A stretch of DNA of 64,000 bases. Source: Symbiodinium sp. CCMP2592 (Eukaryota; Sar; Dinophyceae; Suessiales; Symbiodiniaceae). The position numbers and the translations under genes were made by a program. The notes beneath the pieces are model-generated. The model made no database searches and was not told where the DNA came from. It saw only the letters and a list, made by a program, of their open reading frames with translations. The stretch spans positions 16,001 through 80,000 of the forward strand of contig CAJNDT010000593.1 in assembly GCA_905221615.1 (NCBI GenBank), written 5' to 3'. The number at the start of each line of letters is the position of its first letter. Position 1 is the first letter of the stretch. Below, piece by piece: positions 17,695 through 62,815 of this stretch.

Positions 17695-20283
17695 CTAGAA
17701 GACAATTGGCCCGAAAGCATCATCAGCGAAGAGTGTTGCTCTACGTCATAGAACCCAGTGTATAGGGTCATAGAGTCACCGAGTCAAAAGCACGGAGTCA
17801 CAGAGTCGGAGTGTCACATACAGTCAAGAGTCGTACAAGTCATAGTTCATAAAGTCATCGAGAAATAGAGTCGAGTACATGTCAAGCACAAGTCATAGTT
17901 CAAAGAGTCATAGAGTCATATAGAGTCATAGAGTCACAGTGAGACAGAATCATAGAGTCATAGTGTTATAGAGTCATAGCGTCAGAGTGAGAAAGAGTCA
18001 TAGAGTCATGGAGTCATCTATGTACCACGCACTTGACTTGATGTAGTTCACTCTATGAACACTAATGTTCAGGTTTAGCGGGTTTAGGGTATAGTCCAAC
18101 ATGACGCAGAAGTCTTCCTTTCCTAGCTTCGGAACCTCACTATATAGACATCCCTGATTACTGTGGTTTCAACGTGACTCTATGACTCTATGCATGGTCA
18201 CTTTATGTCGCAGCAGTAGTAGTAGTAGTAGTACTAGCAGTACCAGTACTAGTAGTAGTGATAGTAGTGGTAGTCGTAGTAGTAGTCGTCGTCGCGTAGT
18301 CGCAGTCGTAGTCGTAGTAGTAGTAGTAGTAGTAGTTGTTGTAGTTGTTGTTGTGGTAGTTGTAGTTGTTGTTGTGGTACTAGTAGTAGTAGTAGTAGTA
18401 GTAGTTGTAGTAGTAGTAGTAGTAGTAGTAGCAAAGTAGCAGTAGCAGTAGTGGTGGTAGTAGTAGTAGTAGTGGTAGTAGTAGTAGTAGTACTAGTAGT
18501 AGTAGCAGTAGTAGTAGTAGTAGTAGTATTCTTTTGTAGTAGTGGTAGTAGTAGCAGTAGTAGTAGTAATAATAGTTGTAGTAGTGGTAGTGGTAGTAGT
18601 AGTACTAGTACTAGTTCGAACACTCGACAACGCCAATCTCTGTGAAGGGTTGCAAGTTTCACCTCAATTTACATCAAAAGTAATAACTTTACCTCGCGTT
18701 CGAACACTCGACAACGCCAATGTGTGTGAAGGGTTGCAAAATTCATCTCAATGCACATCAAAAATTGCAACTTTACCTCGCGTTCGAACACTCGACCACG
18801 CCAATCCCTGTGAAGGGTTGCAAAATTCATTTCAATGCACATCAAAAATTGCAACTTTGCCTCGCGTTCGAACACTCGACCACGCCAATCCCTGTGAAGG
18901 GTTGCAAAATTCATCTCAATGCACATAAAAAATTGCAACTTTACCTCGCGTTCGAACACTCGACCACGCCAATCCCTGTGAAGGGTTGCAAAATTCATTT
19001 CAATGCACATCAAAAAATGCAACTTTACTTAGCGTTCGTGCATTCGACCATGCCAATCCCTGTGAAGGGTTGCAAAATGCAGTTGAACTGCGCCCAAACC
19101 CTGTGAAGGGTTGCGCGGCGCCCGCAAAATGTGTAACTTTACCTCGCGTTTGAACACCCGAGGAGGCGAATCCCTGTGAAGGGTTGCGCGGCGCGCCAAA
19201 ATGTGTAACTTTACCTCGCGTTTGAACGCCCGAGGAAGCGAATCCCTGGGAAGGGTGCGAAGCGCACCGCAAAATGTGTAACTTTACCTAGCGTTTGGGC
19301 GCTCGAGAGTTCCAATCCCTGTGAAGGGTTGCGCGGGAACCGCAAAATGTGTAACTTTACCTCGCGTTTGAACGCCCGAGGAGGCGAATCCCTGTGAAGG
19401 GTTGCGCCGGGCGCCTAAAATGTGTAACTTTACCTCGCGTTTGAACGCCCGAGGAGGCGAATCCCTGGGAAGGGTGCGAAGCGCACCGCAAAATGTGTAA
19501 CTTTACTTCGTTTGAACGCCCGAGGAGGCGAATCCTTGTGAAGGGTTGCGCCGGGCGCCTAAAATGTGTAACTTTACCTCGCGTTTGAACGCCCGAGGAG
19601 GCGAATCCTTGGGAAGGGTTGCATTCCCGATGGACGACGACGGTGCCACCCTTGGCTTTAGAAGAGAGATTAGATACCGAGATGTAGAGAGTATGTAGAG
19701 AGGTAGAGAGTAAGTCAGAGAGTAAGTCAGAGAGTAAGTCAGAGAGTAAGTCACAGAGTAAGTCATAAGTCACAGAGTAAGTCATAAGTCAGAGAGTAAG
19801 TCACAGAGTAAGGCACAGAGTAAGTCAGAGAGTAAGTCAGAGAGTAAGTCAGAGAGTAAGTCACAGAGTAAGTCATAAGTCAGAGAGTAAGTCAGAGAGT
19901 AAGTCGCAGAGTAAGTCACAGAGTAAGTCAAGAGTAAGTCACAGAGTAAGTCACAGAGTAAGTCACAGAGTAAGTCACAGAGTAAGTCACAGAGTCATAG
20001 AGTAGTCAAGTGAGTAAGTCACAGAGTCCTCAAGTTCATAGAGTCATAGAGTCATAGAGTAGTCAAGAGTAGTCAAGTTCGGTCTTAGAGTCATAGAGTC
20101 ATAGGGTCATAGAGTCGTAGACTCAAGTGTCAAGTCATAAGGTCATGTGCTCGATTCTATGTTTGTCATCTATGTATCAAGTGTCAAGTCATAAGGTCAT
20201 GTGTTCGATTCTATGTTTGTCATCTATGTACTTGTCTACCCGGCTCCGCACGGAAGAACCCTTCGCGACGCTTTCGGGAAAAA
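17695..20283 (-). mobile_element. CE composite repeat, copy 1 (inverted relative to copies 2 and 3)
   Basis: Bounded by short inverted repeats: CCCGAAAGCATCATCAGCGAAGAG at 17710-17733 and its imperfect complement CCCTTCGCGACGCTTTCGGG at 20259-20278, with a further 15 bp (ctagaagacaattgg) outside the first. Internal order: TAGAGTCA repeats (about 17740-18060), one short telomere-like patch ('gtttagcgggtttagggta', about 18070), TAG/GTA triplet array (about 18205-18610), 84-bp tandem units (about 18614-19090), 72-bp units (about 19100-19620), a conserved spacer with 'gacgacggtgccacc', then GTAAGTCACAGA repeats (about 19690-20120). It is inserted in R1, and the uninterrupted R1 at 2.1-2.4 kb is the empty site. 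No protein-coding gene: all ORFs inside follow the repeat period. Confidence 0.72.
18614..19620. repeat. tandem satellite units of 84 bp then 72 bp
   Basis: The motif 'gcgttcgaacactcgacca' recurs at about 18698, 18782, 18866 and 18950, a period of exactly 84 bp. Each unit carries CCAATCCCTGTGAAGGGTTGC and a variable 'aattcatttcaatgcacatc' part. From about 19100 the unit shortens to about 72 bp with 'aaaatgtgtaactttacctc' and a GC-rich spacer. Because 84 and 72 are multiples of three, long repetitive ORFs appear on both strands; I treat these as artefacts. Confidence 0.9.
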
Positions 20284-20456
20284 CATGTATTTTGCAGTGT
20301 AAAAAATTTACATTGCAGTATAGGTTTTTTATTATACAAAGTAAATTAATTTACAATTTTTTTTTTACGTAATTTTTTCGTAAATTTGAAGTGTAAATCA
20401 AGCTTTGTTTAGTAAATTGCTCGCCACCTAAAATTAGGTAAACAGCAGAGTCAGGG
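20279..20456. repeat. right half of R1, downstream of CE copy 1
   Basis: Matches 2186-2360 from 'aaacatgtattttgcagtgt' to 'aaacagcagagtcaggg', with small indels. The sequence after it differs from the first locus, so R1 ends here. Confidence 0.8.
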
Positions 20457-20482
20457 CACGGTTATTAGCCGATCTCTATCTG

Positions 20483-23400: not shown

Positions 23401-23543
23401 ACCGCCTACAGGAGCTGTATGAGCAGCGCAATTACCAAATGTTATACCTGTTGCGCGAATCCCACTTTCCGACCAGCGGCAACGACATGCAGCGCCTGCT
23501 GGATTCTTGGCCGTGGCCTTCGACACTGGATTGTACCCAGTGA
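20483..23543 (+). pseudogene. long degraded reading frame, unrecognised, with several frameshifts
   Basis: Open stretches on the plus strand follow one another with changes of frame: 20483-20935, 20940-21300 (LFNFFYSHHNELGVFIDLF, ICLVDKAGRFTMTGEDAHQ), 21260-21540 (CDTALEFYERWFVNCIPPL), 21447-21779 (LGLLEFTNPPRIGLHRLRAH), 21850-22600 (TWEERVAALLDAVEYPP, FDLSWYELARPEIWWWFFLDE), 22724-23083 (FLEVRVKVEVPASLVGRPQI), 23060-23352 (KDFYFPVRLWRHAHFDAWD) and 23352-23543 (YGFYRLQELYEQRNYQMLYL). Each has natural amino-acid composition and they abut, so I read them as one ancestral coding sequence of roughly 1,000 codons broken by at least five indels. No enzyme, capsid or transposase motif is recognisable to me. 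It starts right after R1 and may be part of an unknown element. Assembly error is an alternative cause of the shifts. Confidence 0.45.
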
Positions 23544-23569
23544 CGGTGTAGGCCGTCGCATTCCAGAAG

Positions 23570-24110: not shown

Positions 24111-24620
24111 CTCAGGCCTCCTTTAAGCCTTTCTTCAAACCAATCCTAGGCCTGCCTTGAAGCCTTCCTGGGTTTAACCTGGGTTTAACGGTGAAACCTG
24201 GGTGCTTATTTAAACTGGGTTCCAAACCTGGGTTAGAACCTGGGTTTCAAACCTGGGTTGAAACCTGGGTTAGAACCTGGGTTTCAAACCTGGGTTTGGA
24301 ACCTGGGTTTAAGCTGGGTTTGAACCTGGATTTTAACTTGGGTTTAACGTGGGTTCATTAAACCCGGGTTCCAAACCTGGGTTAGAACCTGCTTTTCAAA
24401 CCTGGGTTCAAACCTGGGTATAACCTGTTTTAAACCTGGGTTTAACCCGGAGTTGAAACCAGGTTCGAACCCTGGTTAAACCCAGGTTAAAACCCAGGTT
24501 CAAACCCAGGTTAAACCCAGGTTTCAAACCTGGGTTCCCGGGGTTGTTGTTGTCCCCTCCCGGGGGGAGGGAACCCAGGTTCAAACCCAGGTACAAATCT
24601 AGGTTAAACCACCGGGGGAG
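24110..24620. repeat. AACCTGGGTT minisatellite arranged as an inverted pair
   Basis: Up to about 24445 the plus strand carries repeats of AAACCTGGGTTT/GAACCTGGG with spacing of about 15-20 bp. From about 24460 to 24610 the same motif appears in the complementary form (AACCCAGGTT). The two arms meet near 'ggagttgaaaccaggttcgaa' and a second centre 'ttcccggggttgttgttgtc'. The unit itself is near-palindromic, so the region could fold into hairpins. The Asn/Leu/Gly-repeat ORF across it is an artefact. Confidence 0.85.
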
Positions 24621-32200: not shown

Positions 32201-32210
32201 AGGGCTGCAG

Positions 32211-35200
32211 TTGCCAAGCAGGGGTGAGAGTCCAACCACACATGACGAGAGTCTCGACTCGACAGCTCCACCCACGAGGAACGGATCTGTCGAAAAACTC
32301 CAGGAGATCGTGCGGGCCGTGAAGGCCTGCACGACCCTTGCGAGAGGGCTTTGGAAAGAGATCAGGCATCAGAGCTTCAAGCAGTCGGAATTATTCTCGA
32401 AATGTGGCCGATCTGGGTCAGGCCGCTAAGCCCTTGCCATGCAAGCCACACTGCCAGGCAAAAGCCCCGCTGGTACAATGCCTCACGAACTTCGCTGCTT
32501 GACCGGGAAACCGTGAAGCTTCGGAGTCATTTCGCCACTTCACTGGGGACCTGGCAGTGCTGTGTTTCATCTCCGTCTGCCAAGTAAAGCATGGTTGCAC
32601 CATTCGTAATGCTACTCAAACGGTCATGACGAGTTTTGTTGTCGCCGTTGCTGCTGCTGCTGTTGCTGCTGAGCGCGTTGTTCCTTACTTACCACGAAGC
32701 TTCTGATACTTTCTTCAGTGCGCCGGCCGCATGTACTGCGCTTATTGCTTGTACTTGGGACTACTTGTCATTTTAGCCCTCCTTTCGAGGCCTTGCCAGA
32801 AAGGGGTTAGCGAAGAGTAACAGTCTCGACCATACGAAGTGTACATATTCACGCGACTTTCAGGACGGTCAATTGCTTCCGCAGGGAGGTATTTGCTCAA
32901 GACATTTCGTTGTTCCAAACCTTCGCTGTGCTTTGTTTCCAGGCATTCTTCCGTACCTCCCTGAGGTGTCCATGGACTTCATGGCCAACGGTCTCCTCGC
33001 ACTCGGGGCCTCACCTGCCATGGTCCATGCAGTGGAGGAGCTCGAGTCAGCGCCCTGCCCTTGCTTGCTCCCCAAACTCCAAACCAGAACATGGACGGCG
33101 TTTTTCCCGAAAGCATCGCGAAGGGTTCTTCCGTGCGGAGCCCTCGAGAGAAGTACATAGATGACAGACATAGAATCGAGTACATAGCTAACATGCATCG
33201 AGTTTAGTACATAGAGTCGAGTACATAGATGACTTACCAGGACTCTAACTCTATGTACTGTATGCTATGACTCTATGTATTTGACTCTATGCATTTGACT
33301 CTATGCACTTGACTCTATGACTCTATGACACTATGACTCTATGACTCTACATCTCGGTATATAATCTCTCTTCTAAAGCCAGGGGCACCGTCGTCATCGA
33401 TCAGGAATGCAACCCTTCACAGGGATTGGCCTGGTCGAGTGCCCAAACGCTAGGTAGAGTTACACATTTTAGGCGCCGCGCGCAGCCCTTCACAGGGATT
33501 GGCCTGGTCGAGCGCCCAAACGCTAGGTAAAGTAACACATTTTTGCACATTTTAGGCGCCGTGCGCAACCCTTCACAGGGATGGGCTTGGTCGAGTGCCC
33601 AAACGCTAGGTAGGGTTACACATTTTAGGCGCCGCGCGCAACCCTTCACAGGGATTGGCTTGGCCGAGCGCCCAAACGCTAGGTAGAGTTACACATTTTA
33701 AGCGCCCCGCGCAACCCTTCACAGGGATTGGCTTGGTCGAGCGCCCAAACGCGAGGTAAAGTTGCACATTTTGCGGTCGACGCGCAACCCTTTGCATGGA
33801 TTGGCTTGGTCGAGCGCCCAAACGCTAGGTAAAGTTACACATTTTGCGGTCGACGCGCAACCATTTGCATGGATTGGCTTGGTCGAGCGCCCAAACGCTA
33901 GGTAAAGTTACGCATTTTGCGGTCGACGTGCAACCTTTTGCGTGGATTGGCGTGGTCGAGTGCACGAACTTGCAACCCTTCACAGGGATTGGCGTGATCG
34001 AGTGCGCGAACGCGAGGTAAAGCTGCTACTTTGAAGCACTTTTGCAACTCTTCACAGGGATTGGCACTTTGCAACCCTTCACAAGGATTGGCATGGTCGA
34101 ATGCACGAACGCCAGTTAAAGTTGTTACTTTTGATGTGCATTGAAATGAATTTTGCAACCCTTCACAAGGATTAAATTGGTGTGGTCGAACGCACGAACG
34201 AGGTAAAGTTACTACTTTTTGATGTGCATTGAAGTGAAATTTGCAACCCTTCACAGAGATTGGCGTGGTCGAGTGTTCGAACGCGAGGTAAAGTTAACAC
34301 TTTTGTTGCGCATGAAGGTGTAGCAGTAATGGTAGTAATAGTAGTCATAGTAGTATAGTAGTAATAGTAGTAATAGTAGTAATAGTAGTAATAGTAGTAA
34401 TAGTAGTAGTAGTAGTAATAGCAATAATAGTAGGAATAGTAATAGTAATAGTAGTAATAGTAGGAATAGTCGTATTAGTACTAATAGTAGTAATAGTAGT
34501 AATAGTAGTAATAGTAGTAATAGTAGTAATAGTAGTAATAGTAGTAATAGTAGTAATAGTCGTAATAGTCGTAATGCTAGTAATAGTAGTAATGGTAGTA
34601 ATAGTAGTAATAGTAGTAATAGTAGTAATAGTAGTAATAATAGTAATAGTAGTAATAGTAGGAATAGTCGTATTAGTAGTAATAGTAGTAATAGTCGTAT
34701 TAGTAGTAATAGTAGTAATAGTAATAATAGTAGTAATAGTAATAATAGTAGTAATAGTAGTAATAGTAGTAATAGTAGTAATAGTAGTAATAGTAGTAAT
34801 AGTAGTAATAGTAGTAATAGTAGTAATAGTAGTAATAGTAGCAATAGTAGTAATAGTAGTAATAGTAGTAATAGTAGTAATAGTAGTAATCGTAGTAATA
34901 GTAGTAATAGTAGTAATAGTAGTAATAGTAGTAGTAATAATAGATTGAAACCCAGAAGCACTAAACCCAGAACCCTTTGAAACCAGAAGCCCTAAACCGC
35001 AGTGCTAAACCCAGAACCCCTGGAACCAAAAACTCCTAAACCCAGAAGATCCCAGAAGCCCTGCACCCAGAAACTTTGAAACCCAGAAGCAAGACGGAAA
35101 AGAGGGTTCAACAAAAAAGGAAGCACTAAACCCAGAACCCTTTGAAACCAGAAGCCCTAAACCGCAGTGCTAAACCCAGAACCCCTGGAACCAAAAACCT

Positions 35201-38030
35201 CTAAACCCAGAAGCCCTGCACCCAGAAACTTTGAAACCCAGAAGCAGTAAACCCAGAACCCTTTGAAACCAGAAGCCGTAAACCGCAGTGCTGCTAAACC
35301 CAGAACCCCTGGAACCAAAAACCCTTAGTCCCGACACAAGCTGACGGGATTTCAAACACATCGATCACTATGTACTTCATAAGTAGATGCACTTCACTCT
35401 ATGACTCTATGGCTCTATGCACTGGATTCTATAACATAGCGCAAAACTCTTCGCTAATGATGCTTTCGGGCCAATTGTCTTCTAGTTTGTCTTCAGTGAG
35501 TCCTCGCAGCTCGGTAAGTTTTTCTTTTTGCTTATCTGCGATGAAATGTGCAGTCACCCTAGACCCTACCCAAATTTTTTCTCGAGCCCCCACACCAATA
35601 CTCTGGTACACAAGCGCTTGCGGGACACTTCAGCCTACTTACTCTATGCGGCAGTGGTGTAGCCTCCTAAAATTTTCCAATCCTTTGTGCAGCTCTCCTC
35701 AGCCTCTGATATCAGATGGCTGCAATCCTTTCCGGAAGTTGAGCAACGCACGGTGCCTTATGGAGCTGCGTATCAGTGAGTGCGTGAGTGCAGTCACTCC
35801 TACTCATTGGTGTTGAAAGCTAGAAAGCATAGCGTCTTCAACTTCAGATGCGTGTGTCCGCACCACTTGAGAACTTGACAACTTCTCTGAGGCAATCGAA
35901 GTCGTTGCGGCGATAAAGGGCGCAGTCTCTATCAACATTGGAACGCTGGATCCAACTTGGAGTCATGGCTTTACAAGGCTTTGGAATATCGCAAGCGATC
36001 TACCCGTGGCCAACACAGCACGGGTACCTCATTCCTGAGCGGACCTGGCTCTTCAATTCAAAGGCTGCTTTAGAATCTGCTTTTCTGCACCGTGAACTTG
36101 ATTTCTCCCAAGGATAGAGTCCTTCAAGTTTGCAGCAAGGCCAGTGCCAGTGCTGCTTGTGTAGCATGGCCCATGTCTGCAGATGGAGCGTACCGTCGAT
36201 ACGGGCTTGCGAGGACCTGCAAGGCCAAGGGAGTGCCGTGGGTCCTGGACCCGGTGGCTGCAGGATTCACACCCCTCAGGCGCGTAGGCGTCCCAAGGGC
36301 CGAAAGGCGATGTACTGCTGCTACTGTGCGCAGCGTGACCTGGTGCAGGACTACCACGGCCACGGAGCTCTTAGACATCGGAGGGTGCAGCCGCGGAAAA
36401 GTTCGCTTGTTTGGTTCAAAGTTCAAGGGTCTTTTGCTAAGGCTTCGACTGCGCGGCCTTGCAGCACAGGGTTTAGCCATTCTTCATGTGGGCTGGCATG
36501 GATGCTGGTGCAAACAGGAAGGTTTTCAACTAGGTTTCAACAGAATGGTCAGCAGAAGACTCCGCGGCTGTTTAATCTGCCAGAGAGTCTGCGAGGTGCT
36601 CGGTGCTCCGTGGCAACGCTTCGGAGATCCTAGCCGTCGCCGGTGCAGCGGGAGACACCAAGGGCGTGGACTCCTCACAAGGCGGGGTCCTTCGCCCAAG
36701 GGGTTGAGGTGAACGTGAGCATCGGCAGGCTCGGGTGCCGCTCTGAAGGCTGCCAAGAGCTTGGCGGCCAAGTACAACTGCGCCGCTTGGATGCCTCTGA
36801 TGGTTGGTGTGAGGAAGCAGCCTGCAGGCTGCCTCTTGCCTCCTCTCACATGCATGAGGTCGTCTGCATCTCTGGTGCCGTTGACTTCGTGGCCGCTCAG
36901 ACCGCTCGAAGTGATCCTCACCCAGCTTCCTTCGCCCGAATTCAACAGAGGTCAATCCCACCGGACAAGTCTCGAGTTGCGAGCATGGGGTAGAGTGGCG
37001 TGTCTGCAATTCGCCAAGCTTTTTCTTTGTTTGGCTTGGTGGCCTTGTTTCGGGCACACTGCTCAATGCAGGGTTCCTGCTTCACTCCCGAGCTACACCC
37101 GAAGTTTCAGAGCTTGGCAGGATGGTTTGCGATCAGTTCTTTCGTGTGCTCAGCAAACCAGGTTTCCAGACTTTGACTGCGAGCGATCTGACTCGAACAG
37201 CCAGCTTCCAGCCCGCCAGGATGCTGACGAAGATCACGGCCGCCGGCTGCCTCGAACCTTGGCATGCACTAAAGAATGCAGCCTGGAAATGGAGTTCCTT
37301 GGCACGTTCATTCTGTCTTCCGGTGAGGTCTCTTCGATCATCGCAGCCTTCCTGGCGGCCAAGCCAAGCGCCCGAATCCGAGAAAACCCTGAGCTCTGCT
37401 CTGATCCCTTCATTGCCAGCATGGCACATCTGACGCCTGAACAAGATGGGACACGTGAAGGACAAAGCTCGGCAGCTAGGAGCGTCACACCGAATCCGCA
37501 CTGACCTCCTTTCCAGAGTTTCCATGGGGCCGAGGGCTTTGCGGACGCGGAGGCAGCTCTGTACGCGTTGCCGGGCGGCAACGTAGCAAGGGAACGAATG
37601 ACCAACCTTGAGGTTTCGGAGAAGTCTTTTGATCTCTGGCTCTGAGCCATTGCCTCTTATTCCCAGTCGAGCGCCCATCTTGTTTGGGGATCCCCGTTCC
37701 ATGCACCTGTTCGGCTTGCAGGTTCATCTACTTCGGCATTTGCTCAGAGGCTGCATGGCATGGAGTGGCTTTGAGTGCCTTTTCAACCCCAGACAAGGAG
37801 GGGGGTCACATTCCCGCGAAAGAGTCTGCCTCGGCCGAGGCAGCGAGTCAGACCAGCAAAGGGCCGGGTTCGCTCAGGCTGAACTTGCTCCTTGGCACGG
37901 AGATGAAAAAGGCAGAGCAGCAGAGAGGGGCCTCTCTTTGGCAGCTAGCGGCACTCTTGCTACTCTTGCTCTTCACAGGCTTGACCAGCTGTACAATTTT
38001 GACCTGGAGCAGTTGGGTGACGATGATTGA
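32211..38030 (+). CDS. thiM: hydroxyethylthiazole kinase, 16 visible exons (N-terminus open)
   Basis: Phosphorylates 4-methyl-5-(2-hydroxyethyl)thiazole with ATP in thiamine salvage (ribokinase fold; EC 2.7.1.50 in the family). Exons read by eye: 32280(or earlier)-32324, 32458-32493, 32966-33049, 35892-35961, 36183-36279, 36349-36380, 36586-36681, 36729-36784, 36859-36894, 37121-37152, 37220-37253, 37328-37369, 37517-37566, 37722-37752, 37840-37886, 37979-38030 (TGA). They join in phase to 279 aa, the normal family length. Landmarks in order: APLVQCLTNF, FMANGLLALGASPAMVHAVEE, VSINIGTLDPTW, GVPWVLDPVAAGFTPLR, VLRGNASEILAVAGAAG, TKGVDSS, VVCISGAVDFVADG, MLTKITAAGC (the conserved Cys), SIIAAFLAAKPS, GPGSLRLNLLDQLYNFD. 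Exons are 31-97 bp. Eleven introns begin GC, two GA, two GT; all end AG, most AG|G. Intron 3 contains CE copy 2. The start codon and any targeting peptide lie upstream of 32280 and were not found. Confidence 0.9.
34320..34945. repeat. (TAGTAA)n array
   Basis: TAG and TAA/TAATAG triplets for over 600 bp, with rare CGT or GGA variants. Read on the minus strand it gives a 236-codon Leu-rich ORF, which is a pure artefact. Confidence 0.95.
34946..35335. repeat. telomere-like AAACCC-derived tandem repeats
   Basis: Recurring blocks such as 'aaacccagaaccctttgaaa', 'ccagaagccctaaaccgcag' and 'cccctggaaccaaaaac' with a period of about 100-130 bp, repeated three times. The AAACCC/CCCTAAA core resembles the TTTAGGG telomere type, but the units are degenerate. 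A similar set occurs at 62337-62670 in CE copy 3. Confidence 0.85.
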
Positions 38031-48640: not shown

Positions 48641-48649
48641 AAGACATTT

Positions 48650-51950: not shown

Positions 51951-53260
51951 TACTGGGTTGCCAAAAGTTCTGGTTAGGCTGTAGTGTGGAGAGGTATTGT
52001 TTTGCAAAAGGAGCTGGCGCTGTGGTTGTTGTTAGCGCATGTTGGCTGGCGTGAGGACTTTGCGTAAACAGAATGAGCTGGCCTCAGTGGGTATTTAGCG
52101 CGAGCTGTTTCTTGCTGAGCCGACTGAATGCGACAGGGACGGGACGAGTTGTTACCTCCACTCTGTGTTAAGCAAGCCTCGAGTTGACACTAAGAGCGAA
52201 CCCATGGGGGGCCTCTACTCCGTGGCTTTTGCGAAGACGGTGCGGAGCTTGAGTAAACTGCCGGTTAGTAGACAGTGTAGAGTGTAGACAGTTGGGCTGA
52301 CGATCGTTCAGGTTCAGGGTCTGCTGGGACTCCGTTTGAAGATATCCTTGGACAGTGATGGAGTGTGGCGGATTGTGTCTAAAGCCAAGCGGCTCCATGA
52401 CAACAGATGATGGGTCGTGCAGCGGCTGCCAGGCGCCAGACATCTTGGGTTGCACGTCCGTGGACAAGCTCTGTCCTCAAGAGTTCAGGAGTTCCTTATG
52501 CATCCGTTTGGTGGAGCAACGAAATGCATCTGCCTCGTACTATTTTCCGAGGCATGTCTATTTGTGGAACTACCAAACAGGCCGGTCATCTCATTGAAGG
52601 CTAAAGCTGGCACCTTCAGGTGGAAGCCTGTTGCTGTATCTACGAAGCATCTGTGAGTTTGTTGAGTCGGAACCATCTGACTTCGCCACGTCTTCCAGCG
52701 TCTATACGCGAGAATCATCGTCACGAAAGGATTCTGCGCGAGGACACTTCTTTTGAGATACGCTGCAACCTTCCATGTGTTTCAGATGCTTTGCACATGC
52801 ACGCTCAACACTTGGCAGGCACCCAGCAGTTCAAACTGGGCGGTGAAAAGGGGCACCAGGCTCGAAGGGACTTCAACAAGAGCTGCAGAAGCAGGATTTA
52901 GTCGACTGGTGCAATCGAACCGCTGCAGCGTGTTGTGATAGCGGTGTCAGAAGCCCAACAGCGGTTGCCTGCGCCCGTTTTCGCCGCAGGACGAGGTGAA
53001 TGGAATCGACTTCCACGAGGGTCAGCAGGCTGGCCTGTGACGGGGCAGATATTCGGGCATGATGGCTTATCTGGGATCCTGGCTCTCGGTTCTCCAAACC
53101 CCCGCCCCGCCAATGGTATCTCCCCCGCCACTCTCTCACTCCCCAAGCCGAATCTGTGTGACTGGACACACTTTCTGCGCGTGAGGGCCCCAAAACCGTC
53201 AGGTTTTTGCTGTAGCCCTGCTGCAGAAGCACTGGTTTAATTTTTTGTTGATCCTCAGCA
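51951..53260. other. unresolved stretch before CE copy 3
   Basis: Short ORFs only. A plus-strand RHVYLWNYQTGR segment at about 52547-52585 might be another WD40-type strand but is weak. Nothing else is supported. Confidence 0.3.
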
Positions 53261-54523
53261 TGGTTCTTCCGTGCGGAGCCCTCGAGAGAAGTATATAGAT
53301 GACAGACATAGAATCGAGTACATAGATGACATGCATCGAGTGAAGTACATAGAGTCGAGTACGTAGATGACTTACCAGGACTCTAACTCTATGCACTGTA
53401 TGCGATGACTCTATGTACTTGACTCTATGTACTTGACTTTATGCATTTGACTCTATGCATTTGGCTCTATGACTCTATGACTCTATGCACTTGACTCTAT
53501 TATGCACTTGACTCTATGACTCTATGCTATGACTCTATGCATTTGACTCTATGTACTTGATTTTATGACTCTATGACTCTATGACTCTATGACTCTATGA
53601 CTCTATGCTATGCTATGACTCTATGCACTTGACTCTATGACTCTATGCTATGACTCTATGCACTTGACTCTATGACTCTATGCTTGACTCTATGCACTTG
53701 ACTCTACGACTCTATGCTTGACTCTATGCACTTGACTCTATGACTCTATGCTATGCCTCTATGCTATGACTCTATGCACTTTGCCTGACTCCCTACATTT
53801 CGGTATACCTTGTTGCCAGGGGCGGCACCGTCGTGATCGATCGGGAATGCAACCCTTCACAGGGATTGGACTGGTCGAGCGCCCAAACGCTAGGTAAAGT
53901 AACACATTTTAGGTGCCACGCGCAACCCTTTGCATGGATTGGCCTGGTCGAGCGCCCAAACGCTAGGTAAAGTAAGACATTTTAGGCGCCACGTGCCACC
54001 CTTTGCATGGATTGGCCTGGTTGAGCGCCCAAACGCTAGGTAAAGTTGAACATTTTGCGGTCGACGTGCAACCCTTTGCATGGATTGGCTTGGTCGAGCG
54101 CCCAAACGCTAGGCAAAGTTACGCATTTTGCGGTCGACGTGCAACCCTTTGCGTGGATTGGCGTGGTCCACGAACTTGCAACCCTTCACAGGGATTGGCG
54201 TGATCGAGTGCGCGAATGCGAGGTAAAGTTGCTATCTTGAAGCTCTTTTGCAACCCTTCACAGGGATTGGCACTTTGCAACCCATCACAGGGATTGGCAT
54301 GGTCGAATGCACGAACGCTAGGTAAAGTTGCTACTTTTGATGTGCATTGACATGAATTTTGCAACCCTTCACAGGGCTTGGTGTGGTCGAACGCACGAAC
54401 GCGAGGTAAAGTTACTAGTTTTGATGTGCATTGAAGTGAAATTTGCAACCCTTCACCGAGATTGGCGTGGTCGAGTGTTCGAACGCGAGGTAAAGTTAAC
54501 ACTTTTGCTGCGCATGAAGGTGT

Positions 54524-54943
54524 TGTAGTAATAGTAGTAATAGTAGTAATAATAGTGTTAGTAGTAGTAATAGTAGCAATAGTAGTAATAGTAGTAATAG
54601 TAGTAATAGTAGTAATAGTAGTAATAGTAGCAATATTAGTAATAGTAGTAATAGTAGTAATAGTAGTAATAGTAGCAGCAATAGTAGTAATAGTAGTAAT
54701 AGTCGTAATACTAGTCATAGTGGTAATAGTAGTAATAGTAGAAATAGTAGTGATAGTTGTACATACTAGTAATAGTAATATGAGTAGTAATAGTAGTAAT
54801 AGTAGTAATAGTAGAAATAGTGGTAATAGTAGTAATAGTAGTAATAGTATTAATAGTAGTAATAGTAGTAATACTAGTAATAGTAGTAATAGTAGTAATA
54901 GTAGTAATAGTAGTAATAGTTGTTATTGTAGTAGTAATAATAG
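54524..54943. repeat. (TAGTAA)n array, left part in CE copy 3
   Basis: TAG/TAA triplets with occasional CGT and GAA variants. It ends at 'aatagtaatccccccaaagc', where the retrocopy-like segment begins. Confidence 0.95.
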
Positions 54944-54946
54944 TAA

Positions 54947-56400
54947 TCCCCCCAAAGCTGCCTCCCCTCCTCCCGCTCAGGCAGCACAGGCCTCTCTTCG
55001 CTCCATTACCCCCCCTCCCTGTTCTCGCCCCCCGTCTGCCTACGAGCCCCCGGTGCGAAACGCTGAACCTGTTGGTTATATCCCACAGCCAGCCCCGCCT
55101 ACAGCCGTCACATACTCGAGGTTGGAATTGGCACAGCTGCTGAGCTCCCAGTCCCACCAGGACTGGATTCGAGCACTGGCTTCCATCAACATCTTGGTGG
55201 CCCCAGTAATTCTTGGTGGACTTACCAACCAGGAACAGCAGAACCTCTGGTCCACCAGAATGGAGGCTCTGCGGCAGGTGCCTCCGCTTTTCTCAGCCAT
55301 CAAGCATGTTAAGACTCAAACAGGCCTCACGTGGGACATCGCCATGTCCGTGCGGCGCGTCCTCACCAGTGATGGACGAGTCACCATTGCCACAGGCTCA
55401 GGCGACGCGTACCGGGAGTTGGATGCTCCAACAAAGGTGCATGGCCTTATCCATGCTTGTTTCAACAAGCTGTGGGACGAGAAGGACTTCCAGCGACACT
55501 TTCCCACGCGGATTGAGTTCAACATGATCGCAAATACTATGGTGGCGGTCTATAACGAAACTGCCAAATCCGCTGGTCTCTCAGCTCGCATGTTTCGGGT
55601 CAAACCCAACAAAGACGCCTACTCCATTATGAAGATGCGGATTCAGCATGACAAGGGGATAGAGGAGGATAAGCGCATGGCTAAACTGGCTGCAGCCGCT
55701 GCGCCCCACAAGCGCCCGCAAGTGCACGAGGCCGACACCGAGGGCAAACGCCAGCGTGATGCCCCTTCATCCTCGTCCTCGAGTCAGTGGGCCAGGCCGG
55801 CACGTTCCTCTCAAGAGGACGACTGGGACTGGTGGCAACAGTGGTCCTGGCACGGTTACCAGCAGCTTTCACAGCAGTGGCAGTACGGTCACCGCCAATG
55901 ATCCTAGGGCTATGTCACAGACTCCCCAAATCCCGTATGGCACAGCCTCTGGGAATTCGAAGCTCTTCCGACGCTTCTGTAAATCCTTTCGGAAGCTGCA
56001 GTGCAGAAAGACCACCGGTGCAAAAAGTGCAGGTTTTTTGCACTATGACTGAGCTGATCTGTACTGTCAGCCTTCATGGCTGGACTCACTCGGCTCTGCA
56101 GGTACACGTTCGTGATCCTTACGGCCTTCTGTCAACAGCATGAGTAATCCGTGTGGGACGCCACGAGACGGATACTCCAGGTGTCGGCTTCGTCTGAGGT
56201 ACGGCCTAATTGCTGAGACAGGTGCACAGATGGACGCGTCTGTTCAAAATAAGGTGTCGGAGGAGGAGCCTAGTAGACTTTGTAACCTAGTTGTATGTGC
56301 AGATTGAGAGGCTTTTGCGATGATTGCTAACAGCAGTTTCACGAGTGCACGAGACCAAAGCGCCCGCAAAGCGCAGAGCACGCTCGCGCAGCGTTCAATT
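54947..56400 (+). mobile_element. retrocopy-like segment with an unrecognised ORF
   Basis: An ORF runs from the array junction to TGA 55899-55901 (about 315 codons outside the repeat), then about 500 bp non-coding, ending 'gcgttcaattgaaaataata' as TAG/TAA repeats resume. The protein has a Pro/Ala-rich start (PPKAASPPPAQAAQASL) and a helical core (SHQDWIRALASINILVAPVI, LSARMFRVKPNKDAYSIMKM). A Lys/Arg-rich stretch follows (KRPQVHEADTEGKRQRD), then a Ser run and a Trp/Gln-rich tail (DDWDWWQQWSWHGYQQLSQQ). There is no ATG before 55261, so it is 5'-truncated. It resembles a retroelement gag/ORF1 in layout only. An intronless ORF with a 3' tail merging into the array, as for the LINE next to it, suggests the same insertion mechanism. 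Confidence 0.5.
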
Positions 56401-56452
56401 GAAAATAATAATAGTAATAGTAGTAATAATAGCAGCAATAGTAGTAATAGTA

Positions 56453-57313
56453 ATGGAAAGGATGCACGAAGATCTGCAGTATGATTTACAGGATTTGGAA
56501 GCATTTACGGCGAGCACACACCAGGCGCTTTTCAGACAACACCAAGGGGATGCACTCCTCCAGACGGTGGTCAAACCTTGGCCAAGTGAGTTCTACGACG
56601 AAGACAGGGAGAGAGTTATCAGATATTACGCAGAAAAGGCAGGGGTCGAAGGACAGTACACACCAACTCATGGCAGGAACGTCTACGGGCGGTACAAGCC
56701 ATCCACCGTCACCATCATGAACTGGAAGACCGAAAAGGCCAAAATTGATTTCGAGAGCTACGTATACCGCAGATACAACAAGAGGTTTCCAGCCACTGTT
56801 TGGGACCACAACAACGCTACTGTGTACCACCACTCTGGCCAACCACACAGGATCACTTTCTCACCGCAGGTAAGTGACATGGAGAGAGACATCAACCAAG
56901 CAATCAATGCAGCGCTCCATATCGTCACCACCAACGACAAGAGTGACCTGGCCAGCACATGGGGAAAAATTGCTGTCAAGTGGCAAGACAAACTGGCGAT
57001 GCGTACAGAAGACAGACTTGTGATCTTCAAGCTCGTCAGAAACGAGGAAGACCCAAAGCTCTTGCATTTCCACGTGCACAAAGATTACTACGATGTGGTA
57101 TATGACAATTGGCGATCTGGTTGGGCAGAAGCAAATGCAAAGACGAAGTGGCCGGATTACAACAAGTACCCCTACATCATCAAGTTCGCGCGTTTGAGAA
57201 GCAATGAGGAGTACAAGACCATGTACAATGCGAAGTGGGGAGGAGAAGACCACTGGGACATGCAGAGACACTCCGACGATGCGGCAGAGGCAAAGCAAGG
57301 CAACGGAGATTGA
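56453..57313 (+). CDS. LINE ORF1 protein
   Basis: ATG 56453 (MERMHEDLQYDLQDLEAF) to TGA 57311-57313, 286 codons. I reject the upstream start at 56324 because it would translate the TAG/TAA repeat (IIIVIVVIIAAIVVIV). The protein is basic/aromatic: YYAEKAGVEGQYTPTHGRNV, FESYVYRRYNKRFPATVWDH, then a C-terminal half rich in Lys/Trp/Tyr (HFHVHKDYYDVVYDNWRSGW). No zinc knuckle or classical coiled coil is visible. Position 49 bp upstream of ORF2 in the same frame, separated by stops, fits the ORF1 of a two-ORF LINE, where such proteins bind element RNA. Intact. Confidence 0.7.
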   Translation: MERMHEDLQYDLQDLEAFTASTHQALFRQHQGDALLQTVVKPWPSEFYDEDRERVIRYYAEKAGVEGQYTPTHGRNVYGRYKPSTVTIMNWKTEKAKIDFESYVYRRYNKRFPATVWDHNNATVYHHSGQPHRITFSPQVSDMERDINQAINAALHIVTTNDKSDLASTWGKIAVKWQDKLAMRTEDRLVIFKLVRNEEDPKLLHFHVHKDYYDVVYDNWRSGWAEANAKTKWPDYNKYPYIIKFARLRSNEEYKTMYNAKWGGEDHWDMQRHSDDAAEAKQGNGD

Positions 57314-57361
57314 CTATATCCTGGGCAGCAAAAGGCAGGAAGCAGAGATGAGAAGGAATTA

Positions 57362-60300
57362 GTGAAGGAACTAGGATGGAAAAGAAGGAAGGAATTAGAA
57401 GCCAGAAGCTCCAAGACGCACAGTCTTTCGGAACAGGAGCAGTCAGTGAACCGTCCAGCGGTGTGCCGGGACCTTCAGCCTAGGTTGAAGAGCGAAACCC
57501 CCAAAAGGCCTGAAAGGGTTGGAGGGCGTTTCAGAGAACGAGAAGCTGCGGTAAATGCTATGAACCGAAATAGAAATCATTTGTCAAATGCTAAGCGCGC
57601 CTTTAAGAGAAGACTTTGGAGATTCTATAAAAGCAAAATTTCTCTGAAACGTTTGAAGGCCCCCAAGGCTCAGGAAGCTTGGCTGGGAAGGAAGAAACCC
57701 TCGCGGCGAGTAGCTAAGCTGGGTTTTAAGACGTTTCTGCAGCAAGTTAATCGTAAAGACCCCCCAAAATCTCACAAAGCCAGAGGTTTCAAAGTACCGT
57801 ACAGGCTTCCAATGAGATTCGCTACACTGAACGTACGAGGTCTGAATGGGGACAACGGGATTACAAAGAGACAGCTCATCGTTGAAACCATGAAAAGGGA
57901 TAAGTATGATGCCATGTTGCTTTCTGAAACGCAGGTCAACTGTAATAGTAGTGAGACACATGGTGATTACCTTTTCTTTTTCAGTACCGACGTCCCTCAT
58001 GACAAGAAGGATCGAGAGCACGCTGGTGTCGGAATAGTAGTGCACAAGAAGTGGCAGCCTTGCATACATGAAATTCGACCTATATGTGGCCGACTAATCC
58101 TTTGTAAATTTAGATCATATGGGATAAACTTTTCACTTCTGGGAACGTATGCGCCGCATAGTGGTCACTCCACGCAAATTAAGGAAGACTTTTATGATAC
58201 TCTTCAAACTTACGTAGAGGGTTCGAATGAGGTTTTGTTAGTTGGTGGAGATTTCAATGCAAGACTGCACCATCGGTACCCAACCGAGACGGACTCTCTG
58301 GGGCCGAACATTTTCGGTAGAGGCAGGGAATACCTTGAGCAAGTAGCTGAGAAGACCCGTGAGAATCGTGATCTGTTCATGGATTTCTGCCGAATGAATT
58401 CGTTTGTAGTGTTAAACACTCTGTTTGATAAACCCTTGTCAAAACAAGCTACGTATCGAGAAGTATCTACCCACATTGGAGAGACGATTTCGGCAGAAAA
58501 ACATGCCCAACTGGACTTCTGGTTAATTAAAGATTGTTACAAGAATTGTTGCGTGAATGTACAAAGTAGAACAGATCTTTACCTCTATTCTGACCATTAC
58601 CCCTTAGAAGCTTGTTTCCAACTGCACCTTAAGGCGCAATGCCCGCGAAGACCCACGCGAACAGTTAGATACCAGAAGCCCTCTTCGACCCAGTTTGCAG
58701 AATACAATGCTTTCATTCGTAAGAACTGGACTCACGGTTGCGACCACCAAAGCTTCAATGACATCATCAAAGAAGCAGCAGAGGCTTGTTTAGTTAAGAG
58801 TGCGCGATTTTCAGTAAAGAAGAATTATTTATCCAGACAGACCTGGGGCCTCATAGAAGAGAGACAAAATAAGTACAAAGATGGCGATTATGAAGCAGTT
58901 TGTGAACTCAATCAGAAGATCAAGACTAGTGCCAGAAATGATTGTAGAAATAACGTAGCAAACAACTTCAAAGAAGACCCTCATGATCGCCATCATAAGA
59001 AGCTTTGGAAAGTTGTCAGCCACCTCAGAAAAGATTTCAAGCCTAATTACATTGCAATGCGAGACACTGAAGGTAGATTGGTGCCTTTGAGAAACAGGGC
59101 GGAGACCATAGCAACCTATCTAGAGTCTAAGCATTGGGTGAATAGTGCCGGGTTAGAGCCTCTACAACATGCAGACCCTATCGGAGAGCCACTTGCTTGT
59201 AACGAAGCACCTTTCTGTATTCAGGAGCTTGCACAGGTACTCAAAGCGGCCAAGATAGACAAGCAACCTGGACCAGACAGTGTGATTATGGAATTATATA
59301 AATGGCTCGACGCTAATAACAAAGAGATTCTGCTGGATATGTTGAATTCCTGGTGGTCCAGAGGAGCTGCGCCTAGCGATATTTTCCACGCCAGCGTTGT
59401 GCCGATTTACAAGAAATGTAAAACAGATGATGCGGCAAACTACAGACCCATATCCTTGTTAAACAGTATATACAAAATTTATTGTACTTTAATCAGAAAC
59501 CGGGTGCAAGAAGCAGCTGATCACAAAGTCTCGGCAACTCAGTATGGATTCAGACCAAACAAGTCTACGGCGCATGCTGCTTACATAATCCGCCAAATCC
59601 AAGATTGGAGCGAACAGAAGTCATCTGAGTTGCACTTAGCATTATTAGACTGGGAGAAGGCATTTGATAAAGTACAGCACCATAAGTTGTTCCAATCGCT
59701 GGAAAGGCTGGGTTTCACCAACAAGTACGTAAACACCATTCGCAATATATATTCTTCCCCTACCTTTTTTGTTGAAGATGATTACGGTACTTCTACTAGT
59801 AAAGTACAAAAGACAGGAATTAGGCAAGGATGTCCATTGTCGCCATACTTATTTCTGTTAGTTATGACGTGCATAGACAAGGATGTAGGCCGACATTGCT
59901 CTGGATTCGTACATAATGCCAGGCTCCCGGGCCTGGATTTCAATAGTGTTTATTATGCGGATGATACTATCCTATTTTCCACAACAGCACGCGCACTTAA
60001 TGAGCTCATCAGTCATGTGGAAAGGTTTTCAGAGCAATACGGCCTACGACTGAACAGGGCCAAATGTTGTGTCCTGCACATGAACAAAGAGGCGGACATT
60101 CATTTTTCAGATCACGCGTTACTGCCTAAAGCACAAGATGCAGTCTACTTAGGCAATAACTTGAATCATACAGTAAATATTCGGCACGAAGTCATCCAAC
60201 GGATTGTTGACGTAAAGAGGACGTGGTTGAAGCTTCATGTATATTGGAGAGATCAGGCAGCTAACTCAAAGTGGCAACTATTAGTGTATGATGCTGTTAT

Positions 60301-60760
60301 AAGAAGTAGACTGCTTTACGGACTCGAAACAGTTCATCTGACCAAGTCTTTAATACAGAGGATTAACGCGTTTCACCACAAGGGCCTTCGAAAAATACTT
60401 AGACTAGCTTCCACATATATTGATCGTAGGAACACCAATGCGAAACTATTCGAGAAGGCCTCTGAAATCGCAGGCAGAGAAATGATCCCGTTCAGCAAGA
60501 TGCTAGAACAAAGGCGAGTGAAACTTGCCGGGCATGTACTACGTTCCAGTTCGACAGACCCAATGAGACAGATAAGCTATCAACCTGATAGTGCAAACCC
60601 TTGCATAATCGGAACCCGTAGGGTAGGCCGCCCCAGACAGCAATGGTTACACAACACTAATGCTCTTATACACACGGCATTAACAGGTAATGACAACTAC
60701 ACGGGGTCTGAAGCTCAAACCGCTAGGATTTTGCAGGCGGCAAGAGACAGAATCGTTTGA
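57362..60760 (+). CDS. LINE ORF2: AP-endonuclease and reverse transcriptase
   Basis: 1,132 codons, uninterrupted. The first start-like codon is GTG 57362; the first ATG is at about 57559. Residues 1-145 are basic. From residue about 151: apurinic-type endonuclease with FATLNVRGLNG, AMLLSETQ (catalytic Glu), GVGIVVHKKW, LLVGGDFNARL (about 292), QLDFWLI and SDHYPLEA (about 409). Reverse transcriptase: KQPGPDSVIMELYKWL, VVPIYKKCKTDDAANYRPIS, QYGFRPNKSTAHAAY, LALLDWEKAFDKVQH (motif A), GIRQGCPLSPYLFLLVM, VYYADDTILFS (catalytic YADD, about 863-866), LRLNRAKCCVL and YLGNNLN. The C-terminus has RRVKLAGHVLRSS and VGRPRQQWLH, the usual tail of such proteins. There is no RNase H domain. All catalytic residues are present, so this copy could be active or very young. 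It lies between two TAG/TAA arrays, the 3' end being 'cagggcttttgaaaaagtag'. Confidence 0.95.
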   Translation: MKELGWKRRKELEARSSKTHSLSEQEQSVNRPAVCRDLQPRLKSETPKRPERVGGRFREREAAVNAMNRNRNHLSNAKRAFKRRLWRFYKSKISLKRLKAPKAQEAWLGRKKPSRRVAKLGFKTFLQQVNRKDPPKSHKARGFKVPYRLPMRFATLNVRGLNGDNGITKRQLIVETMKRDKYDAMLLSETQVNCNSSETHGDYLFFFSTDVPHDKKDREHAGVGIVVHKKWQPCIHEIRPICGRLILCKFRSYGINFSLLGTYAPHSGHSTQIKEDFYDTLQTYVEGSNEVLLVGGDFNARLHHRYPTETDSLGPNIFGRGREYLEQVAEKTRENRDLFMDFCRMNSFVVLNTLFDKPLSKQATYREVSTHIGETISAEKHAQLDFWLIKDCYKNCCVNVQSRTDLYLYSDHYPLEACFQLHLKAQCPRRPTRTVRYQKPSSTQFAEYNAFIRKNWTHGCDHQSFNDIIKEAAEACLVKSARFSVKKNYLSRQTWGLIEERQNKYKDGDYEAVCELNQKIKTSARNDCRNNVANNFKEDPHDRHHKKLWKVVSHLRKDFKPNYIAMRDTEGRLVPLRNRAETIATYLESKHWVNSAGLEPLQHADPIGEPLACNEAPFCIQELAQVLKAAKIDKQPGPDSVIMELYKWLDANNKEILLDMLNSWWSRGAAPSDIFHASVVPIYKKCKTDDAANYRPISLLNSIYKIYCTLIRNRVQEAADHKVSATQYGFRPNKSTAHAAYIIRQIQDWSEQKSSELHLALLDWEKAFDKVQHHKLFQSLERLGFTNKYVNTIRNIYSSPTFFVEDDYGTSTSKVQKTGIRQGCPLSPYLFLLVMTCIDKDVGRHCSGFVHNARLPGLDFNSVYYADDTILFSTTARALNELISHVERFSEQYGLRLNRAKCCVLHMNKEADIHFSDHALLPKAQDAVYLGNNLNHTVNIRHEVIQRIVDVKRTWLKLHVYWRDQAANSKWQLLVYDAVIRSRLLYGLETVHLTKSLIQRINAFHHKGLRKILRLASTYIDRRNTNAKLFEKASEIAGREMIPFSKMLEQRRVKLAGHVLRSSSTDPMRQISYQPDSANPCIIGTRRVGRPRQQWLHNTNALIHTALTGNDNYTGSEAQTARILQAARDRIV

Positions 60761-60855
60761 CCGGACGCGTCGTTGCTCTTTCCTTCCAGCCGAGCGCCGA
60801 AGCGCTCTTTCAAGATGCAGGCAGCTGCATTGAGCGCAGGGCTTTTGAAAAAGTA

Positions 60856-61365
60856 GTAATAGTAGTAATAGTCGTATTAGTAGTGTTAGTAGTAATAATA
60901 GTAATAGTAGTAATAGTCGTAATAGTCGTACATACTAGTAATAGTAGTAATAGTAGTAATAGTAGTAATAGTAGTAATAGTAGTAATAGTAGTAATAGTA
61001 GTAATAGTAGTAATAGTAGTAATAGTAGTAATAGTAGTAATAGTAGTAATAGTAGTAATAGTAGTAATAGTAGTAATAATAGTAATAGTAATAATAGTAA
61101 TAGTAGTAATAGTAGTAATAGTAGTAGTATAGTAGTAATAGTATAGTAGTAATAGTAGTAATAGTAGTAATAGTAGTAATAGTAGTAATAGTAATAGTAG
61201 TAATAGTAGTAATAGTAGTAATAGTAGTAGTAGTAGTAATAGTAGTACGACTAATAATAGTAGCAATAGTATTAATAGTAGTAATACTAGTAATAGTAGT
61301 AGACTAGTAATAGTAGTAATAGTAGTAATGGTAGTATTAGTATACTAATAGTAGTAATAGTACTG

Positions 61366-61423
<58 letters not shown>

Positions 61424-61425
61424 GC
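60856..61425. repeat. (TAGTAA)n then (TAG)n array, right part in CE copy 3
   Basis: Begins directly at the LINE 3' end ('ttttgaaaaagtagtaatag') and continues to 61425, the last 60 bp as pure TAG. The Ser/Asn and Leu/Ile/Thr ORFs are artefacts. Confidence 0.95.
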
Positions 61426-62336
61426 ACCCCCCCACCCCTACCAACTACACTTGCTCTCAACCATGTTAAGACAACATCCATTTTACTCGGTATTTACGGC
61501 ACTTTCGTCATGTGCGATCATCCTAAGAGGCCTAAAAATCGACTTGTCGAGTTTGCACTTGATTTTGGACTTGCTTCTGGGGGTGGGTGGGGGGGTGGGG
61601 GGGGGGATGATGACGACAGTGTTACGCGAACACACCCAGCAGTATCACCACAAGAGCCGTTTAACTCGGTATTTACGGTACTTTCGTGATGTCAGACTTT
61701 GTTACAAATTCTGAGCCCCTACTTCTCGACTATGCGTATTAAACTTTGCTGTTTGGAACTGTTTGCAAAAAACTCGAAATTGGGTGGGGGAAAGCTTCTT
61801 CGGGATGATCACGACACTGTTTTGCGGACACCCTGAACAATATTTCCACACTCAAGCGTGCACACACCACACACACCACTTCAAAAACAGACCCTCCTAC
61901 GCAGAGGTTGGGCGGTAGGGGTGTTGGCGAGCCCCTCCCACGTACAGCTGGCATCTTTGTTTTTGATGTTTAGAAGATGTTGCGCTTCAGGTTCTGAAAA
62001 TGTTAAACCCTTCTTGGACGCACCTGGGTTTTGCACGGTATTTACAGCGTTTTCGTACTATCCGACCACCTGCGGTTCAGCTGTTTCTTCCCCGTCGAGC
62101 TTGCAACTCCGGCTGCTGTCGCAGTTTTGGGGCCTGAGCCCTTGCAACTTCACCGGTTGTGACAGTTAAGGAAACGGAGCCCCTGCAGCTTCTGCAGCTG
62201 TCGCAGATAGGGAGCTTGAGCCCGTGCATCTTCTGCAATTGTCGCAGTTAAGGCCCCTAGCAGCTGCCGCTGCCCAGCCCGGATGGAACAAGTGTAGTTG
62301 GTAGGGGGGGGGTGGCTAGTAGTAGTAGTAATAGTT
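61426..62336. other. non-coding segment of CE copy 3 with a G-run block and degenerate repeats
   Basis: No gene. A block of G runs lies at about 61578-61606 (gggggtgggtgggggggtgg continuing), a strong G-quadruplex candidate. The phrase 'cggtatttacggcactttcg' recurs near 61490, 61669 and 62037 (last copy degenerate). 62095-62270 has loosely repeated 'gagcccttgcaacttc' and 'ttctgca(g/a)(c/t)tgtcgca' units. None of this is in CE copies 1 or 2, so it may be a further insertion. Confidence 0.5.
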
Positions 62337-62670
62337 TGAAACCCAGAAGCAATAAGCCCAGAACCCTTTGAAACCAGAAGCCCTACACCGCTGTGCTAAA
62401 CCCAGAATCCCTGGAACCAAAAACCACTAAACCCAGAAGCCCTGCACCCAGAAAGTTTGAAATCCTGGAGCACTAAACCTAGAACCCTTTGAAACCAGAA
62501 GCCCTCAACCGCAGTGCTAAACCCAGAAGCCCTGGAACCAAGCCCTGCACCCAGAAACTTTGAAACCCAGAAGCACTAAACCCAGAACCCTTTGAAACCA
62601 GAAGCCCTAAACCGCAGTGCCAAACCCAGAACCCCTGGAACCAAAAACCCCTAGTCCCGACACAAGCTGA
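62337..62670. repeat. telomere-like AAACCC-derived tandem repeats, CE copy 3
   Basis: The same blocks as at 34946-35335 ('aaacccagaaccctttgaaa', 'ccagaagccctaaaccgcag', 'agtcccgacacaagctgacg'), with some units shortened. Confidence 0.85.
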
Positions 62671-62815
62671 CGGGGTTTCAAATACATCCATCTCGGCATT
62701 ACTATGTACTTCATAATTAGATGCACTTCACTCTATGACTCTATGGTTCTATGCACTGGATTCTATAACGCAAAAACTCTTCGCTAATGATGCTTTCGGG
62801 CTAATTGTGTTCTAG

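Follow-up and report, generated by a model that had tools for sequence, protein, structure and literature searches.

The window analyzed here is a stretch of 64,000 nucleotides, positions 16001–80000 of contig C593 of Symbiodinium sp. CCMP2592, a dinoflagellate. It carries three copies of an element, called CE, that is largely filled with tandem repeats. The original prediction, made from the letters of the window, had located three copies, and self-comparison of the window recovers all of them close to where they had been placed, copy 1 on the minus strand and copies 2 and 3 on the plus strand. Their borders and ends are as follows.

17695–20278, minus strand: CE copy 1 (CCCG...CTAG), with TT on either side, from end matches and the empty-site paralogue at 2098–2360
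20259–20278, minus strand: copy 1 left inverted repeat, terminal (4/2000 shuffles as good)
17710–17733, minus strand: copy 1 right inverted repeat, subterminal (end-pattern match and shuffle test)
33106–35485, plus strand: CE copy 2, both ends intact (end matches)
33106–33125, plus strand: copy 2 left inverted repeat, CCCGAAAGCATC-GCGAAGGG (0/2000 shuffles as good)
35447–35470, plus strand: copy 2 right inverted repeat, 15 nt ahead of the last G of CTAG (end-pattern match and shuffle test)
53262–62815, plus strand: CE copy 3, without its left inverted repeat and with three internal inserts (end matches, shuffle test)
62777–62800, plus strand: copy 3 right inverted repeat (end-pattern match)
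2098–2360, minus strand: empty site, an unbroken repeat with homology to the two flanks of copy 1 (self-comparison)

All three copies carry the identical left 19-mer, GGTTCTTCCGTGCGGAGCC (three window matches at ≤3 mismatches; chance mean 0.04), and the right-end 25-mer also occurs three times in the window (chance mean 0.00). Identity across the left block is 91% for copy 2 against copy 3 and 72% for copy 1 against copy 2. The element starts with CCCGAAAGCATC-GCGAAGGG, and the inverted counterpart of this sequence, with four extra bases, is found 17 nt in from the CTAGTT end. The two repeats are placed asymmetrically, the left one being terminal and the right one subterminal, as in Helitron2/Helentron elements. 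The shuffle test supports the predicted imperfect inverted repeats in copies 1 and 2. In copy 3 the left repeat is gone, and 1188 of 2000 shuffles are as good. The end sequences GGTTCTTCCGTGCGGAGCC and the right-end 25-mer are indeed shared, as predicted; since copy 3 is without its left inverted repeat, both complete ends are not common to all three copies.

Searches for the ends were extended to the whole assembly (1,098,105,373 bases, 5383 contigs), with reversed patterns as controls. At ≤3 mismatches the left-end 35-mer gave 460 matches (233 + 227) and the right-end 35-mer 473 (234 + 239); the copy-1 version of the latter gave 348 exact matches (166 + 182). Each reversed control gave 0. 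The abundance of exact right ends suggests recent spread. Places were taken from the first 100 matches listed per search. Among the matches listed (100 left; 144 right, from the two right-end searches), 46 of the 100 left ends are followed within 20 kb by a right end of the same orientation, at a spacing of 1.3–18.3 kb (median 2.8 kb); in the controls, 0 left ends had such a partner on the upstream side and 1 had one on the other strand. Long pairs lie on C358 (9.3 kb), C5160 (9.6 kb), C113 (12.8 kb), C215 (18.0 kb) and C135 (18.3 kb). The originally proposed check that genome-wide copies share both ends thus came out in favour of CE for these 46. On contigs up to C402, where neither list omits matches at up to one mismatch, 32 of the 52 left ends have a partner, and the 20 unpaired ones are truncated, diverged or interrupted. 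Right ends also occur in tandem on C557 (149248, 150302 and 151349, ~1.05 kb apart), and two lie 4,463 bp apart on C4656 and likewise on C4911. A search of viral_contigs with two CE end patterns gave zero matches. Outside the dinoflagellate, the left 19-mer has two exact matches, both in one Pseudonocardia genome, which is about chance for 257 billion bases.

Twenty further loci, selected as high-scoring matches to the left end of copy 2, were fetched. A right end was found in 10 of them; among the other 10, L020 has one 13.3 kb away and L026 runs into N. L017 and L018 have identical flanks and represent one locus, duplicated.

The insertion site of copy 1 could be reconstructed from within the window. 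A repeat of ~265 bp occurs twice (2098–2360 and 17609–20456), and its second occurrence is split by CE copy 1. Positions 2098–2183 match the flank at 17609–17694 at 96.5%, and 2182–2360 match 20279–20456 at 94.4%. The empty site reads CATG-TTTTT-AGGTT and the filled site CATG-TTTTT-CCCGAAAGC...CTTCTAG-TT-AGGTT, a comparison that sets the CE borders at CCCG and CTAG. Because TTTTT is followed in the filled site by the element and TT, at most TT was duplicated. As for the target-site duplications that were to be looked for in the flanks, the one empty site shows TT at most. Joining the flanks of 12 copies revealed no further convincing empty site in the window and the fetched DNA. Matches to the joined flanks of L027 are an effect of its trinucleotide-repeat flanks; this copy lies within a TTA/CTA-rich microsatellite stretch. 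At each of the 20 left junctions that could be scored, TT stands directly before the element (23 rows, from which the duplicate L018 and the altered left ends of L030 and copy 3 were omitted), and it follows 12 of the 13 right ends found, L018 counted, with L027 as the exception.

Asymmetric inverted repeats, TT at the junctions and a duplication of no more than TT point to a Helitron2/Helentron-like element rather than to a transposon with symmetric terminal inverted repeats. In the available parts of the papers cited here and below, Helitron2 elements and their non-autonomous HINE relatives have a 5′ repeat 0–2 bp from the end and a subterminal 3′ repeat, insert after TTTT or at TT without target-site duplication, and contain internal tandem repeats (PMC5148889, PMC3627910, PMC7492417, PMC4067079). 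The T-rich or TT insertion of this group recurs in CE, at the one empty site and in all scorable left junctions, with duplication of TT possible. CE is therefore probably a transposable element that is non-autonomous, has a high copy number and works like a rolling-circle element of the Helitron2/Helentron (HINE) type. A Rep-helicase supplied in trans would move CE by rolling-circle transposition, inserting it at TT and duplicating TT at most. The signals for mobility would reside in the ends, namely a conserved block at the 5′ end, the asymmetric inverted repeat and a tail at the 3′ end that closes with CTAG-TT. We write "works like" rather than "is" because terminal hairpins were not found and a helper with CE ends was not identified.

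The original prediction of a non-autonomous, DNA-transposon-like unit holds insofar as CE is mobile, has hundreds of copies and left a clean empty site. The classical type with terminal inverted repeats is not supported, because the repeats are asymmetric, the element targets TT and no duplication goes past TT; it is not our first choice, as the right repeat is internal, away from the extreme end. A cut-and-paste (DDE-type) transposon that is non-autonomous and duplicates 2 bp, TT, at its target, with the right repeat 17 nt internal by happenstance, would account for inverted repeats in both end regions, for TT on either side and for the two T that the filled site has gained. We regard it as unlikely: the right repeat is followed by a tail, CCAATTGTCTTCTAG, that is conserved in its own right, being contained in the 348 exact 35-mers and the 473 at ≤3 mismatches, and no transposase was present among the 18 of 26 listed window open reading frames (ORFs) that were scanned.

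In comparison with canonical Helitrons (Helitron1), the CTAG at the 3′ end of CE fits their CTRR. Their A/T insertion site was not seen, CE having TT on both sides, and their 3′ hairpin 10–12 nt from the end was not found in CE when end folds were compared with shuffles. The genome is rich in Helitron genes. Helitron_like_N has at least 150 genome matches (150 of 754 candidates scored), some within long open ORFs, and both RepHel ORFs examined contain PIF1 domains, one of them together with Josephin. RepHel genes stand in tandem on C2618 (L051, L052) and also on C1838, C2731 and C2473. The C2618 unit is 15,311 bp long, with telomere-like repeats inside, and its second copy is 100% identical over the 2,890 bp read; Helitron_like_N matches on other listed contigs are similarly spaced. 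RepHel loci were considered as autonomous versions of CE, but no common ends were seen in 20 loci or among the matches listed for an 18-kb stretch.

Several observations weigh against a Helitron2/Helentron-like mechanism. None of seven single-strand end folds beats shuffled sequence as a terminal hairpin (47–176 of 200 shuffles fold equally well or better). The 3′ repeat of CE, at 15–17 nt from the end, is nearer than the 20–30 nt given for Helitron2 (PMC3627910). CE ends were not found in the 20 RepHel loci, of 3.2–3.7 kb, and among the matches listed between the 18-kb RepHel stretch and CE there were telomere-like repeats only. For 54 of the 100 left ends listed, the right-end lists contain no partner within 20 kb. 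The empty site is a single one and is compatible with duplication of TT. Copy 3, which is 5′-truncated and retains its 3′ end, is flanked by an imperfect 24-bp direct repeat (0/2000 shuffles); such a flanking repeat in itself speaks for the Helitron2-like reading, but it does not start exactly at the right end. This repeat, TGGTTTAATTTTTTGTTGATCCTC, lies at 53232–53255 and 62826–62848, and TTGATC also directly follows the right end. Asymmetric ends, a TT target and the absence of hairpins would equally fit an undescribed class of element moved by a recombinase or through single strands (e.g., replitron-like, or an unknown HUH element). We think this quite improbable, since every other feature has a precedent in Helitron2 or HINE elements and Helitron genes are abundant in this genome.

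The interior of CE consists of tandem arrays, listed here for each window copy.

19679–20230, minus strand: copy 1 left GACTCTATG and GACTTACTCTGTG arrays (repeat scan)
18614–19622, minus strand: copy 1 arrays of 73-bp and 84-bp units (repeat scan, unit comparison)
18215–18615, minus strand: copy 1 trinucleotide array, reading CTA in the orientation of the element, without TAA
17762–18017, minus strand: copy 1 right GACTCTATG array
33241–33352, plus strand: copy 2 left GACTCTATG array
33409–34313, plus strand: copy 2 73-bp then 84-bp units
34321–34945, plus strand: copy 2 TAG/TAA array
34946–35330, plus strand: copy 2 telomere-like AAACCCAGAA repeats
53406–53791, plus strand: copy 3 left GACTCTATG array
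53848–54515, plus strand: copy 3 73-bp then 84-bp units
54525–54947, plus strand: copy 3 TAG/TAA array, first piece (further pieces at 56404–56454, 60849–61423 and 62316–62334)
62335–62650, plus strand: copy 3 telomere-like repeats

A second GACTCTATG stretch lies just within the right end; copy 1 has a long one, the other two copies a short one. All copies had been expected to contain a telomere-like array; copy 1 has none, and the trinucleotide array of this copy runs on the other strand and is free of TAA. The census of arrays covered the 12 copies with both end regions (9 fetched and 3 from the window, 35.2 kb), L018 being omitted. GACTCTATG and the 73/84-bp units are present in 12 of 12, TAG/TAA arrays in nine (eight on the plus strand, one inverted, three copies having none) and telomere-like repeats in nine. 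In the 20 fetched loci as a whole, 17 have the 73/84-bp units; L016, L019 and L022 are without them in the stretch examined. CTA-strand arrays resembling that of copy 1 occur in L022 and L029. The fetched copies retain the order of the blocks, except at L017/L018, in which units and a TAG array are repeated. The fixed order originally proposed is thus confined to the core, GACTCTATG followed by the units; the TAG/TAA and telomere-like arrays are optional, and the former is sometimes inverted. Internal tandem repeats and a microsatellite are features that CE has in common with Helitron2/Helentron (HINE) elements.

Comparison of 31 units (six short pieces were omitted) revealed that the 73-bp and 84-bp units are related to each other and so are not two independent satellites. 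Several tandem repeats do travel together, as had been proposed, but as up to four kinds and not five. Later units of copy 2 have positional partners in copy 3 (c2_07/c3_04, c2_09/c3_06, c2_11/c3_08, c2_12/c3_09 and c2_13/c3_10), and the first 84-bp unit of copy 1 is nearest to c3_08. Among the seven 73-bp units of copy 1, six are nearest to another copy 1 unit and the seventh ties with one. Positional pairing together with this kinship inside copy 1 indicates that the arrays were inherited as a set and later altered locally. The core arrays and any optional ones would be copied with the element and would then lengthen or shorten copy by copy, growth presumably following insertion. An origin of the arrays from RNA genes was rejected, because scans of the window found neither tRNAs nor Rfam matches at gathering thresholds.

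In the window, matches to GACTCTATG, to TAG/TAA 12-mers and to the core of the 73/84-bp unit are confined to the three copies. A small, non-random sample of 210,038 bases outside CE contained zero matches to GACTCTATG, TAGTAATAGTAG, GCAACCCTTCAC, GGTAAAGTTRC or AAACCCAGAA, one match to five-fold TAG and two to CCCAGAACCC. Telomere-like and TTA/CTA-rich stretches also exist outside CE, at 24215–24610 in the window and in the flanks of L022 and L027; the window stretch is a separate CTGGGTTTAAAC-type array that belongs to no CE. Such repeats, and the duplicated locus L017/L018, are what would be expected if CE were a chance mosaic of satellites or a segment copied by ordinary duplication. That explanation is hardly credible. 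A chance mosaic is contradicted by the hundreds of end matches, their oriented pairing and the empty site, and we reject it on these grounds; moreover, flanks differ among the other fetched copies, and neither GACTCTATG nor the unit core has a match in the 210 kb outside CE.

Copy 3 is 9.5 kb long because three inserts break up its TAG array, not because its arrays are longer.

54948–56403, plus strand: insert A, with an ORF that has no Pfam match above cut-off and four homologues, one of them in Symbiodinium
56455–60848, plus strand: long interspersed nuclear element (LINE), with a 329-residue ORF and a 1132-residue endonuclease-reverse transcriptase ORF (57362–60760)
61424–62315, plus strand: insert with 30-bp terminal inverted repeats (0/1000 shuffles)

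TAG sequence lies on either side of the third insert, within the TAG array. A protein 95% identical to that of the LINE is encoded on a 5,002-base contig. Another reverse-transcriptase ORF in the window (2366–4018) has named matches that include Symbiodinium and Polarella proteins. Split TAG arrays are also present in L012 and L020, and in L020 the split array is followed by sequence weakly matching the LINE reverse transcriptase (23% identity). Specificity of the LINE for TAG arrays was considered and is not supported: its 3′ region matches five other places, four of them reaching the 3′ end, and clean TAG arrays surround none of these. The surroundings of L057 are TAG/TAA-like, however, and L054 begins AGTTAGTAGTG. 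The TAG/TAA array may take in other transposons; as other LINE 3′ ends lie outside clean TAG arrays, a role as landing pad is suggested, not shown.

The claim that no element of this kind has been described proved too strong, as oyster Cg_HINE elements carry satellite-like arrays (PMC7492417). These non-autonomous Helentrons of the Pacific oyster resemble CE in their flanking modules, subterminal inverted repeats, central satellite-like array and microsatellite, and in T-rich or TT insertion without target-site duplication and many dispersed copies. They differ in having one, exceptionally two, clusters of central repeats in a single orientation, whereas CE has up to four array kinds and its TAG array can be inverted, and in their 3′ palindrome, which was not found in CE (PMC7492417). 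DINE-1 and mite HINEs, also non-autonomous Helentrons, share with CE subterminal inverted repeats, a preference for TT, an internal microsatellite and tandem repeats, and at least two T on each side of an unmodified target; in mite HINEs the subterminal repeats are 38–60 bp from the 3′ end and are followed by a palindrome, in contrast to the 15–17 nt and lack of a palindrome in CE (PMC4067079). Chlamydomonas Helitron2/CRe elements have asymmetric inverted repeats (8–15 bp) with the 5′ copy 0–2 bp from the end, full-length copies that insert after TTTT without target-site duplication, and 5′-truncated copies with flanking repeats that recall CE copy 3. Hairpins, not found in CE, are described at both of their ends, and the available text describes no satellite package (PMC3627910). 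Fusarium FoHeli elements likewise have asymmetric inverted repeats, and one of their two groups, FoHeli3–5, is without a 3′ hairpin. They are autonomous, unlike CE, measure ~5–11 kb and have no satellite package in the available text, and FoHeli1/2 insert between TNAT and T, which CE does not (PMC5148889). Helitrons are mentioned in passing in the accessible part of one Symbiodiniaceae paper (PMC9087856). A literature search outside subscription journals and Repbase found no published account of an element such as CE among the titles and abstract openings listed.

CE is gene-less and seems to share its mode of movement with the Helitron-type elements by which satellite repeats are spread in oysters and flies. 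It is a concrete vehicle for dispersing several tandem repeats jointly through a large protist genome, and one empty site fixes its borders. Satellite-carrying Helentron-like elements would thereby extend to a dinoflagellate. New with respect to the oyster HINEs are the up to four array kinds, the division into a core told apart from optional arrays, and the host. We tentatively picture CE as a mobile multi-satellite cassette, a helper-driven family that may have spread up to four unrelated array kinds as a unit to hundreds of dinoflagellate sites. Its arrays would be remodelled after landing, and the TAG/TAA array would offer other transposons a landing pad, with satellites accumulating together with nested elements as a result.

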